Assembly: GCA_027619975.1 (NCBI GenBank)
Contig: JAQCGX010000024.1
Location: 1 to 52,644 of the forward strand
Reading direction: 5' to 3'
Origin: Nitrospinota bacterium
GTDB lineage: Bacteria; Nitrospinota; Nitrospinia; Nitrospinales; VA-1
Length of the DNA stretch: 52,644 nt
Program-made: the position numbers and the translations under genes
Shown here: positions 4,350 to 39,819 of the stretch, in pieces
Numbering within the stretch: position 1 is the first letter of the stretch
How the letters are laid out: every line of letters begins with the position of its first letter
Notes under the pieces: model-generated
Databases searched by the model: none
Told to the model about the DNA's origin: nothing
What the model saw: only the letters and a program-made list of their open reading frames with translations

Positions 4350-4571
4350 CAGGTTGCTGAAAAAGTCCTTTGCGGTATTTCACCACTGCCTTCATGCCTC
4401 GAGGGGGTATTGGGACCAGAAAATGTTAATCCCAAGCTTTGCGGTTTAACTTAAGAAATGGTGGCACAGGCTTTCCAGCCTGTGGGCACAGCCTGGAAAG
4501 GCTGTGCTACTAACAAGCAAAAACCTGCAAAACTTACTCGCTGACAGAGTTTTTCCTCTTTCAGCAACCTG
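4350..4571. mobile_element. 222-bp miniature inverted-repeat element, type A, with TTAG target duplication
   Basis: The element begins CAGGTTGCTGAAA and ends with the reverse complement TTTCAGCAACCTG. It is flanked by TTAG at 4346-4349 and 4572-4575. It contains no coding capacity. The centre (4461-4510) is a large imperfect palindrome built from two hairpins, CACAGGCT-TTCC-AGCCTGTG and CACAGCCT-GGAA-AGGCTGTG, resembling REP sequences. It sits between the ends of the convergent TVP38 and UDP-glucose pyrophosphorylase genes and could also act as a bidirectional terminator. The mobilising transposase is not in the window. Confidence 0.75.
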
Positions 4572-11446: not shown

Positions 11447-12883
11447 ATGGCAATGGAATTACGACTGAATATGAAGTTGAGCCAGAAGCTGGTAATGACT
11501 CCCATGCTTCAACAGGCCATCAAGTTACTGCCACTCGCCCGAATGGAACTTGCTCAACTTGTAAGACAGGAAATAACCGATAATCCGGTTTTGGAAGAAA
11601 TTCAGGAAGAGGAAGAGGATTTCAAATCCGAATCTGAATCCGAAGAAAAATCACCCCAAAGCGAATCCACTGATGATTTTGATGGACCGATAAGCGACAA
11701 TTCTCCCGCCGATCCAGAAGTGGACTGGGAAAGTTTCTTTCAGAATAATATCGATCGGGGAAGTTCCATCGAAAGCTATTCGGAAATGCCCCCGATTGAA
11801 GCCACTTATAAAAAAGACCCCTCTCTACACGATCACCTGCAATGGCAACTCGACCTCACGGCAAACTCGGAGCAGGACAATTTTATCGGTCAATGCATCA
11901 TCGGTAATATTCAAAACGATGGATATCTCTGTGCCGACCTGGAAGAAATTTCCGGAATTGCTCAAGTTTCTGAAGATGAGGTGCTCCGGGTTTTAAAATT
12001 TATCCAGGGGTTTGAACCAACAGGCGTAGGCGCACGGGGGTTGAAAGAATGTTTAATGATTCAGGCTCAGGCACTGCCCGAAAGAAATCCGCTGATGGAA
12101 ACCCTGATCGACTCTTATTTGGAACGACTGGAGGAACGGAATTTCCATAAAATTGCATCCGAGCTCAAGATCAATGTTGAGAAAATTTTAGAAACCGTAA
12201 AACTAATTCGTGAGTTTTCCCCAAAACCCGGATCGCTTTACAACAGTGAAGGCATCGATTATGTCACCCCCGATTTGACGGTGGTAAAAACCGAAGAGGG
12301 ATACGACATCGCTTTGAATGATGAAGGGGTTCCCAGGCTCCGCATCAATCCATTTTATCAAAATCTGCTGAACATGACCAATGAAGGGCAGACAAAAGAA
12401 TACCTTGAAAACAAATACCGCTCTGCATTATGGCTGATTAAAAGCATTGATCAGCGACGGCAAACAATTTATAAAGTAGGCAAAAGCATCATAAAACTAC
12501 AGATGGAATTCCTCGACCGCGGGTTGACCTATTTAAAGCCAATGGTCTTGAAAGATGTCGCTAAGGATATCGAAATGCACGAATCCACTGTGAGCCGGAT
12601 AACCACCAATAAATATATCGATACCCCTCAAGGAATATTTGAGCTTAAATTCTTTTTCCATAGCGGCATAAAATCCTATATGGGGAGCAACCTTTCCTCG
12701 GTCCGGGTTAGAAATATGATCAAGGATGTGGTTGCCAGCGAAGATCCTAAAAAGCCGCTGACAGATGACGAGATGGTACAGGCTCTGATGCGGAAAAATG
12801 CTAAAATCGCTAGAAGGACCATTACTAAATATCGAAAAGAACTAAATATTCCTCCGGCCAGTAAAAGAAAAAAAATATTTTGA
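11447..12883 (+). CDS. rpoN: RNA polymerase sigma-54 factor
   Basis: This 478-residue alternative sigma factor recognises -24/-12 promoters and needs an AAA+ activator. Region I is Gln/Leu-rich (KLSQKLVMTPMLQQAIKLL, residues 10-28). Region II is very acidic (about 50-110, EEIQEEEEDF and similar). The core-binding domain and helix-turn-helix follow (MHESTVSRITTNKYI). The RpoN box ARRTITKYR lies near the C-terminus. All regions are intact. At least two strong -24/-12 sites occur in this window (38216 and 43106). Confidence 0.98.
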   Translation: MAMELRLNMKLSQKLVMTPMLQQAIKLLPLARMELAQLVRQEITDNPVLEEIQEEEEDFKSESESEEKSPQSESTDDFDGPISDNSPADPEVDWESFFQNNIDRGSSIESYSEMPPIEATYKKDPSLHDHLQWQLDLTANSEQDNFIGQCIIGNIQNDGYLCADLEEISGIAQVSEDEVLRVLKFIQGFEPTGVGARGLKECLMIQAQALPERNPLMETLIDSYLERLEERNFHKIASELKINVEKILETVKLIREFSPKPGSLYNSEGIDYVTPDLTVVKTEEGYDIALNDEGVPRLRINPFYQNLLNMTNEGQTKEYLENKYRSALWLIKSIDQRRQTIYKVGKSIIKLQMEFLDRGLTYLKPMVLKDVAKDIEMHESTVSRITTNKYIDTPQGIFELKFFFHSGIKSYMGSNLSSVRVRNMIKDVVASEDPKKPLTDDEMVQALMRKNAKIARRTITKYRKELNIPPASKRKKIF

Positions 12884-37737: not shown

Positions 37738-37827
37738 TCACTTCTTTGCAGAAGAATAGAAGTAAAACAGAACAGCGACAATCACAATCCCCGTTATCCC
37801 CCATGCAAACAAACACCCTATAGACAT
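37738..37827 (-). CDS. 29-residue single-span membrane peptide
   Basis: The ATG at 37827 is preceded by GGAGAG at eight bases. The sequence MSIGCLFAWGITGIVIVAV continues as LFYFYSSAKK, one hydrophobic helix with a basic C-terminal end, so probably N-out/C-in. It is transcribed toward yejF and overlaps nothing. Such tiny inner-membrane proteins often bind a transporter or oxidase. No family recognised. Confidence 0.5.
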   Translation of the reverse strand: MSIGCLFAWGITGIVIVAVLFYFYSSAKK

Positions 37828-38215
37828 AATTTTCTCTCCGGTTCACATTGACCAAGGCTTTGCAAAAAGCGGCCGACTCAGGATGATTTGATGGCCTGCG
37901 TTTCAAATTGTCCTGAGGAATCTTCCCGCCGACCAGCTCCAGATTTTATCAGGGTTGGAAATCTGGGGATAAAATCACTTTCTCTTCAAGATACTCGCGC
38001 TATTAAACTTAATATTCATTCAAAAATCAATATATTGTACAATTAACTGAAAAATAAATAAGCCGCGATTTCTCAACCATTCTTCCTTTATGCCGTTTCA
38101 GGCAATTCAGGCAAGGAATTATCATTATTTAATCAAGCTTAGTGCCTAATTACATATTTTGTCACTTTTCACTACTATTCAAATAAACCCACTTTGATTT
38201 TTCGAATGTTACTTT
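37828..38215. other. Structured intergenic region
   Basis: About 390 bp without a gene. At 37877-37890 and 37904-37917 lie the arms of a 14-bp stem (CTCAGGATGATTTG with its near-complement). At 37939-37976 two mutually exclusive stems overlap: CCAGATTT/AAATCTGG and GATTTTATC/GATAAAATC. This could be a leader of the 29-residue peptide or an unlisted small RNA. The rest (38000-38200) is AT-rich with no visible feature. Confidence 0.4.
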
Positions 38216-38231
38216 TGGCACAAGGATTGCT
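38216..38231 (+). promoter_or_regulatory. Sigma-54 (-24/-12) promoter
   Basis: TGGCAC (38216-38221), five bases, then TTGCT (38227-38231) match the RpoN consensus exactly. The start codon of the lipoprotein gene is 45 bases beyond the -12 GC, giving a leader of about 35 bases. An activator binding site upstream is not identifiable by eye. Confidence 0.8.
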
Positions 38232-38275
38232 ATTAATGCGACTACTGGACTAATTTAAATATAGCGAAAGTGCTC

Positions 38276-38734
38276 ATGAAACAAGTTCCGATTTTTATAG
38301 CTTTTATGGCAACTCTGCTTTTGTACAGTTGCTCTGTAGTTCCCAAAAATTGGCAGGGAACCAATTTGGGAGGAAATGATACGCAAGCGACCTCTGTTAC
38401 TCATAACTATTCTTTGCAATGGGTGGATAAAGCCATTGTTGAAGTTCTTGATCAAATGGAAATAATGGTTATCGATGTCACCCCCTCCCCTAATGGCAAA
38501 TCCATTAAAGCCGCCACTTTGGATCAGGATATTTCCATTGAATTGATATCGGTGACGCAATCCTCCACCCGCATGCAAGTTGATATAAAATTAACCAGTC
38601 GCGAAGAGCCTGCCTCCATAGGCAATGATATAATGGTTCAAACTGAAAAATATTTACTCGGCAATTCCCAAATTGACACAGTCAACTTTGCGGAAGGCTT
38701 GGACTTCAGCAAAGAAAATCTCCCTGCCAAATAA
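38276..38734 (+). CDS. Lipoprotein under a sigma-54 promoter (DUF3568-like)
   Basis: The product has 152 residues from the ATG at 38276 (a GTG at 38270 is also in frame). Signal peptide with lipobox LYSC, Cys near residue 20, followed by Ser-Val. The mature domain has the pattern of small DUF3568-type periplasmic lipoproteins: SLQWVDKAIVEVLDQMEIMVID, then SIKAATLDQDISIELISVT and TRMQVDIKL. The family match is by pattern only. Function unknown. The sigma-54 promoter suggests expression under a specific stress, nitrogen or motility signal. Proline dehydrogenase starts 92 bp later and may be cotranscribed. Confidence 0.75.
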   Translation: MKQVPIFIAFMATLLLYSCSVVPKNWQGTNLGGNDTQATSVTHNYSLQWVDKAIVEVLDQMEIMVIDVTPSPNGKSIKAATLDQDISIELISVTQSSTRMQVDIKLTSREEPASIGNDIMVQTEKYLLGNSQIDTVNFAEGLDFSKENLPAK

Positions 38735-38826
38735 CTCCAGCACCTTTTCTGCCTGAATTCCCTGAGTTCCTGATTTATCAATCATTTACTTCATTTTTTA
38801 TTGGCGGTATATTGGAAGGGCAGTGA

Positions 38827-39819
38827 GTGGTTTACCGCCTGCCTTCTGTTTATTATGATGCCATACACACCCTGAAATGTGAGATCGCTTTCCACTGGTT
38901 CGCCCTTTCCGACCGCCAGAGGGAGGCTATTTTCTTTCCGTGGATAGACTTTATGCACCTTTTATATCCTTTTGCCAAAAGATTTATTGCCGGGGAAGAC
39001 TCACCTTCCGCTCTGATATCCATTCAAAAACTTTATAAAGCAGGTTTCCTGGCATCGCTGGATATCCTTGGCGAGAATGTCACCAGCCGTGAACAGGCCA
39101 ATGCGGCTCGAGAGGTCTATATCGATCTGATTAAAACCGTTGATCAGGGAAATTTGACGATGGACTATTCGGTCAAATTGACTCAGATGGGATTGGACAT
39201 TGATAAAAAATTTTGTAGAGACAACCTTGAAAGCCTCTTGTTGACTGCGGGAAGCCAGACCGTACGCTTTGATATGGAGGGATCAACATACACCCAACCC
39301 ACTCTGGATATGTGCTTTGATTTTCATTCCCAGTACAAAAACCTGGGGCAGGCGGTTCAAGCGTATTTGTTCCGATCGCAAGGCGATATCGACGCATTGA
39401 TTGAAAAACAGATCTCCGTCCGCTTGTGCAAGGGAGCCTACAAGGAAGCTTCATCCATCGCCTATCAGTCCATGGACGATATACGTCAGAACTTTTTGAC
39501 CTTAGCCTTCAAATTATTAAAGGAAGGACATCTACCAGCCATCGCCACTCACGATGAATATTTACTGGCAGAAATTCTGTCCTTTATCTCCAAGGAAAAA
39601 ATCGACCCCGATTCTTTTTATTTCGAGATGCTTTACGGAGTCGGCAGGGACTTGCAAAAAATTCTTTTGGCAAAAGGTTTCCAGGTTCGCATCTACACGC
39701 CCTTCGGAAACGCCTGGCTCCCCTACACGCTAAGACGGCTGATGGAGAAGAAGGAAAATATGCTGTTTGTGATAAAAAATTTGTTCAGGGAAACGTTCGG
39801 CCTTAGAAAAATCAAATAA
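38827..39819 (+). CDS. Proline dehydrogenase
   Basis: This 330-residue monofunctional PRODH oxidises proline to pyrroline-5-carboxylate with FAD and passes electrons to quinone. The distorted TIM barrel carries SLDILGENV, YSVKLTQMGLD, VRFDMEGS, VRLCKGAYKE, the ATHDEYL segment, FEMLYGVG and the substrate-binding YTPFGNAWLPYTLRRLMEK near the C-terminus, where the last two arginines bind the proline carboxylate. The start is GTG at 38827, with GGAAGGG upstream. No P5C dehydrogenase is adjacent. Proline use could be placed under sigma-54 by the upstream promoter, which is inference. Confidence 0.93.
   Translation: MVYRLPSVYYDAIHTLKCEIAFHWFALSDRQREAIFFPWIDFMHLLYPFAKRFIAGEDSPSALISIQKLYKAGFLASLDILGENVTSREQANAAREVYIDLIKTVDQGNLTMDYSVKLTQMGLDIDKKFCRDNLESLLLTAGSQTVRFDMEGSTYTQPTLDMCFDFHSQYKNLGQAVQAYLFRSQGDIDALIEKQISVRLCKGAYKEASSIAYQSMDDIRQNFLTLAFKLLKEGHLPAIATHDEYLLAEILSFISKEKIDPDSFYFEMLYGVGRDLQKILLAKGFQVRIYTPFGNAWLPYTLRRLMEKKENMLFVIKNLFRETFGLRKIK

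Follow-up and report, generated by a model that had tools for sequence, protein, structure and literature searches.

A sigma-54 promoter-like site accompanies a small lipoprotein gene rather than the neighboring proline dehydrogenase gene in Nitrospinota

The window, by which we mean the whole 52,644-nt stretch of DNA that was analyzed, contains a small lipoprotein gene followed on the same strand by a proline dehydrogenase (PRODH) gene, and a 16-bp sequence resembling a sigma-54 (RpoN) promoter lies ahead of the lipoprotein gene (Table 1). An earlier note on this DNA had described both genes, and our analysis bore out their identities. The lipoprotein ORF encodes an N-terminal hydrophobic stretch and Cys19, and an ORF at 38827-39819 carries the Pro_dh domain (Pfam E 4.6e-31). 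The best four named relatives of this PRODH were from Nitrospinota and Nitrospinaceae MAGs (71-74% identity; records of the same genome were possibly left out of this comparison). Further, the rpoN, ptsN and ptsI genes that the note had placed in the window were found there, as a sigma-54 gene, a PTS EIIA gene (ptsN) and a gene for a PtsI-like enzyme. A search of the window against Rfam yielded no family at the gathering score.

Table 1. Coordinates of the features discussed in the text (positions in the window).
Feature	Position	Strand	Basis and remarks
rpoN (sigma-54)	11447..12883	+	Three Pfam domains
29-aa ORF, probable single membrane span	37738..37827	-	Usually divergent from PRODH; homologues upstream
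TTTTGTCAC element, candidate activator site	38157..38165	+	Alignment; kept in G000, G003 and G002, not in G001
TTGATTT box	38194..38200	+	Alignment; about 20 bp upstream of the -24 element; invariant in four genus genomes
Probable sigma-54 (-24/-12) promoter of the lipoprotein gene, TGGCACAAGGATTGCT	38216..38231	+	Exact match, conservation, recurrence at family members
Small lipoprotein, 152 aa, lipobox Cys19; divergent DUF3568 relative with predicted Flpp3 / Bet v 1-like fold	38276..38734	+	Alignments, weak Pfam matches, AlphaFold model compared with the PDB
Extended -10-like box GGTATATT, proposed part of a PRODH promoter with TTTACT at 38785	38806..38813	+	Kept in six genomes
Proline dehydrogenase (PRODH)	38953..39819	+	Pro_dh Pfam domain; start corrected to ATG 38953

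When the window was compared with the consensus TGGCAC-N5-TTGCW, the sequence at 38216-38231 (TGGCAC-N5-TTGCT) was the sole match with zero mismatches, which confirmed the exact RpoN match reported previously. The GG and GC of the two elements are in place at the correct spacing, and the site is intergenic. At up to two mismatches, there were 34 matches in the window against 23.5 expected, so loose matches to the consensus mean little here. Transcription from sigma-54 promoters starts 12 nt past the C of the -12 element. By this rule, the start would lie at about 38242, 34 nt ahead of the ATG of the lipoprotein gene.

In the genome to which the window belongs (G000; 2.93 Mb in 72 contigs), six sequences matched TGGCACN5TTGCW exactly, against one match to the reversed control pattern. 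Five of the six were intergenic, and the remaining one lay inside an apparent ald gene. An ORF was found within 300 bp downstream of four exact sites, namely those of a FliK-like protein, of fliL with fliM, of a 129-aa protein and of the window lipoprotein; at the fifth intergenic site, an FhaC/ShlB-like gene was slightly farther off (these gene names, ald included, were assigned by eye). Near two of the exact sites, we observed two genes, L002 (159 aa; 2051-2530, + strand) and L006 (129 aa; 1038-1427, - strand), whose short products resemble each other and have the motifs LTxNExLF and FDxxxWLKKVGxxF in common near the C-terminus. The L006 gene lies downstream of its site and the L002 gene is directed away from its own. 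A scan of the genome allowing one mismatch (at least 148 matches, against at least 59 for the control) was set aside because a palindromic repeat inflates the count. This repeat resembles a sigma-54 box and supplies many similar 16-mers in the genome; with TGGCACRGSCTTTCCAGCCTGTG as the query and up to three mismatches, it was located in the window at 4462, 4487, 18539, 23583 and 32999, and was absent from shuffled sequences.

We compared the region with those of other genomes of the genus. The lipoprotein gene was followed by PRODH on one strand in G000, G003, G001 and G002. At the equivalent position, the three congeners have TGGCACAAGGATTGCT (G003), TGGCATATTATTTGCT (G001, one change) and TGGCACAATGTTTGCT (G002), that is, two exact sites and one with a single change, and the site is thus present at the lipoprotein gene in all four genus genomes that carry the gene. 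The lipoproteins of G003, G001 and G002 are 44%, 34% and 36% identical to the window protein, respectively, and the DNA around the conserved site has diverged among these genomes. The fifth genome, G004, had no lipoprotein gene in the 400 bp of contig sequence preceding PRODH, nor was one found elsewhere in that genome, which is 84% complete.

To follow the gene beyond the genus, we searched 77 Nitrospinota genomes and obtained 22 lipoprotein matches in 16 genomes. Exclusion of a 126-base fragment (L184) and of a locus with no upstream sequence (L182) left 20 testable loci. A site was counted when its core was intact, at least 9 of the 11 consensus letters matched and it lay within 200 bp upstream, a threshold that was fixed after a first look. 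By this measure, 11 of the 20 loci had a sigma-54 site, against 0.4 expected from summed shuffles; three of these sites were exact, five scored 10/11 and three were weak at 9/11 (G010, G005b and G059). Seven site-bearing loci were outside the genus (G019, G028, G013, two in G005, G010 and G059). No PRODH was present in the stretches fetched for these seven, and PRODH, where found, was elsewhere in the genome. At the G010 locus (L061), where the lipoprotein gene and its site are beside an apparent ornithine aminotransferase gene (named by eye), the lipoprotein frame has an internal stop near its start.

The remaining 9 of the 20 loci had no site. Four of them, from G008 and the second copies in G001, G002 and G003, formed a clade with support of 100/100. 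These second-type proteins (L067, L070, L158 and L160, of G008, G003, G001 and G002, respectively) are DUF3568-like lipoproteins encoded among what appear by eye to be trp biosynthesis genes. In the same tree, which had six outgroup rows, the genus lipoproteins grouped with the second copies G005b and G013b (support 99/95); G005b has its 9/11 site with no PRODH nearby, and G013b is outside the 20 testable loci. The presence of a site requires three changes on the tree, against a mean of 7.3 when labels were shuffled, L182 being labeled as site-less despite its lack of upstream sequence. With three changes, a single origin of the site is not demonstrated. DUF3568 loci of another phylum had no site in 33 cases (0.6 expected). 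This control comprised the best-scoring 30 loci, from a search in which 69 of 297 genomes matched, and three more, all taken regardless of rpoN content; at one of them (L224) only 56 bp of upstream sequence was available. Absence of rpoN was rejected as the cause of missing lipoproteins, as rpoN was present in 56 of 60 genomes.

The 16-mer might have been a chance match to the consensus, as may be suspected from the exact match inside the apparent ald gene and from the existence of one match to the reversed control. However, a matching site is retained in three congeners although the lipoproteins themselves are only 34-44% identical, and sites recur at unlinked members of the family. Given these observations, together with the sixfold count over the control and the 11 of 20 loci, we rejected chance as a very improbable explanation. 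The earlier proposal of a sigma-54 promoter ahead of the lipoprotein gene is thereby supported, and 38216-38231 is very probably a genuine promoter of this kind.

PRODH itself gave a different picture. Its homology to most relatives starts near residue 43 of the ORF that opens with GTG 38827, and an ATG aligned with ATG 38953 of the window was present in 30 of 30 PRODH loci, the window's own included. The start is therefore most likely ATG 38953 and not GTG 38827, and the gap between the two genes is 218 bp, instead of the 92 bp given previously. Among 60 genomes searched for PRODH, 37 had the gene, in 40 match rows that yielded 30 loci. A sigma-54 site with an intact core and at least 9/11 letters was found within 400 bp upstream at 1 of the 29 loci with that much upstream sequence (L019, 9/11). 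At the four genus loci with the lipoprotein gene, the site is more than 400 bp from PRODH, ahead of the lipoprotein gene. Further, the extended -10-like box in the gap was kept in G000, G003, G004, G001, G002 and G008, in the form GGTGTATT in G002 and GTTATATT in G008. The PRODH locus of G008 has this box with no lipoprotein gene and no sigma-54 site of at least 9/11 within 400 bp. In the window, TTTACT lies 17 bp before TATATT, in a scan that gave 5 such promoter-like pairs against 4.7 in shuffles, and the box occurred in only 1 of the 23 other loci; the box pattern was derived from the six sequences that bear it, so that weight is given solely to its conservation in the alignment. PRODH probably forms a unit of its own, and its sigma-70-like promoter would lie at about 38785-38813.

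These results bear on the proposal of the earlier note that sigma-54 controls proline catabolism. If the lipoprotein gene and PRODH were one sigma-54 operon, proline breakdown would be under RpoN and possibly under nitrogen control, and the common strand and order of the two genes in four genus genomes would be accounted for. The terminator between the genes that had been named as a refutation was looked for in the 218-bp gap and none was found; the first part of the gap (38715-38830) folded no better than shuffled sequences (z -0.37). Some sigma-54 transcripts may accordingly reach PRODH. An operon would also suit the position of the G010 lipoprotein gene just downstream of the apparent ornithine aminotransferase gene, which represents a neighboring pathway step, and links between sigma-54 and PRODH have been published for bacteria of other groups (PMC12316311; PMC8871633). 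However, linkage of the lipoprotein gene to PRODH was seen in this genus only, and elsewhere the site accompanies the lipoprotein gene and PRODH is without it. The conserved box of PRODH, present in G008 where the lipoprotein gene is absent, also argues against a common transcript. We therefore consider an operon unlikely. The sigma-54 site was rejected as a regulator of PRODH in the main reading, being rare upstream of PRODH, a gene with a conserved box of its own. The proposed control of proline catabolism was left unsupported, and the link to proline is most likely accidental.

The neighborhood upstream of PRODH suggests how the two genes came to be adjacent. Homologues of the 29-aa ORF, for which no Pfam match was found, were encoded on the opposite strand upstream of PRODH at 21 of 30 Nitrospinota loci, the window's own included (queries were extended with relatives, and some matches were weak, with E up to 0.03). 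The distance from this ORF to PRODH was 142-408 bp in 17 of the 30 loci and 1010-1126 bp in the four genus loci with the lipoprotein gene, where that gene and its putative promoter separate the small ORF from PRODH, its usual divergent neighbor. The simplest account would be an insertion, in this genus, of the lipoprotein unit between two older neighbors. The 29-aa ORF perhaps encodes a conserved small protein linked to PRODH.

We next characterized the lipoprotein. Cys19 and the core residues were invariant or conserved in all four genus proteins. This conservation of the frame bears on a further alternative, in which the promoter mainly serves a regulatory RNA or a leader and the lipoprotein is incidental; with the lipobox Cys and core retained in every genus carrier, we give that reading almost no credence. 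No direct evidence for it was found, and the lack of an Rfam family in the window is neutral toward a new RNA. All four genus proteins gave some match to DUF3568 (PF12092; best 1e-6), and in the genome search the G003 orthologue, alone among the four, exceeded the Pfam cut-off (28.9 bits). The window protein was below it (12.2 against 23.2 bits) and matched DUF1425 about equally weakly (12.7 bits). Searches with it against NCBIfam returned weak matches to dissimilar families only (best E 0.01), and a sequence search of the PDB returned Flpp3 entries only, none significant (E 0.51 and 0.88).

An AlphaFold model of the lipoprotein, built from three sequences, had block means of pLDDT of 90-95 at residues 41-100 and 71.7 overall, with poor ends; the folded core comprises about 95 residues. 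When the model was compared with the PDB using Foldseek, the top two matches were Flpp3 (E 3.8e-5 and 4.8e-5), and most of those ranked below them were Bet v 1-like proteins. VIA gave Z 11.6 to Flpp3 (2mu4; rmsd 2.3 over 93 residues), and the next row, the Bet v 1-like plant protein 1vjh, had Z 10.7, which counts as a tie. The model thus supports a Bet v 1-like fold class, and Flpp3 itself less strongly. The lipobox suggests a location and role of the protein in the envelope.

The presence of rpoN, ptsN and ptsI in the window had been taken as support for nitrogen regulation. The usual gene order around rpoN is lptA-lptB-rpoN-ptsN. The presence of the three genes is explained by this order and has no bearing on the promoter, which is 25 kb away. 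Eleven AAA+ sigma-54 activator domains were found in the genome at E <1e-60, and none was encoded in the window or on its contig. Five weaker matches were left uncounted, because each of the 14 control genomes gave matches to this family as well. A search for an activator site upstream of the promoter, as had been advised, revealed boxes conserved locally within the genus and no inverted repeat common to the 11 upstream regions. No convincing 7-mer was common to these 11 regions either, the best being AT-rich and present in 5 of 11, and a dyad in G019 was only partly kept in G028. At the five further exact sigma-54 sites of the genome, the preceding 150 bp contained neither TGTCAC nor the TTGATTT box.

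Taken together, we consider it likely that the lipoprotein gene (38276-38734) has a sigma-54 promoter in this site and that PRODH is transcribed apart from it. At 38216-38231, RpoN polymerase would form a closed complex, to be opened by one of the eleven strong AAA+ activator candidates. The lipoprotein would then be produced when needed and delivered to the envelope, and PRODH would be transcribed independently, probably from its own sigma-70-like promoter. The analysis directly shows the site with its conservation, its association with the gene family and the arrangement of the genes; we infer the activity of the promoter, the activator, the independent transcription of PRODH, the envelope location and the insertion of the lipoprotein unit. 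The Nitrospinaceae are known from marine nitrite oxidizers. More tentatively, a lipoprotein of Flpp3 fold and its sigma-54 promoter might constitute a lasting unit in this family, moved or copied to various genomic locations with the switch kept, and serve as a surface or envelope-stress module under one AAA+ activator.

A tempting link between sigma-54 and proline thus gives way to a sigma-54 lipoprotein unit that is conserved within Nitrospinota, and the case illustrates that a perfect promoter may be credited to the wrong neighbor when the start codon and gene order go unchecked. Pairings of Nitrospina with rpoN and of DUF3568 with sigma were absent from the open-access literature searched, in which Nitrospina does occur together with sigma-54. 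The proline reading was neither absurd nor new, as judged from the reports available: a link between sigma-54 and PRODH has been predicted for Bacilli (PMC12316311), and the put genes of Pseudomonas putida are described as not expressed without rpoN, through a regulator that was not identified (PMC8871633). In those bacteria, as in the window, a PRODH gene and a sigma-54 site are in one region; the window differs in that the site accompanies a different gene and that a separate promoter-like box precedes PRODH.

Flpp3 is described as a member of DUF3568 with a Bet v 1-like fold (PMC7431613). The window protein resembles this family in being short, in its one N-terminal Cys and in its predicted Flpp3-like fold, and differs in its score under the Pfam cut-off, its equally weak match to DUF1425 and the tie in the VIA comparison. 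Francisella, the home of Flpp3, is listed among diderm genera without sigma-54 (PMC3162934), so the control of Flpp3 there must differ from that of the window lipoprotein. In that survey (Francke et al., 2011; PMC3162934), sigma-54 is presented as the controller of the 'bacterial exterior' and is associated with flagella, surface polymers and lipoproteins. Its main text contains no word beginning with 'Nitrospin'. The exact sites of G000 agree with it, since flagellar genes and a lipoprotein gene are among those that follow them.
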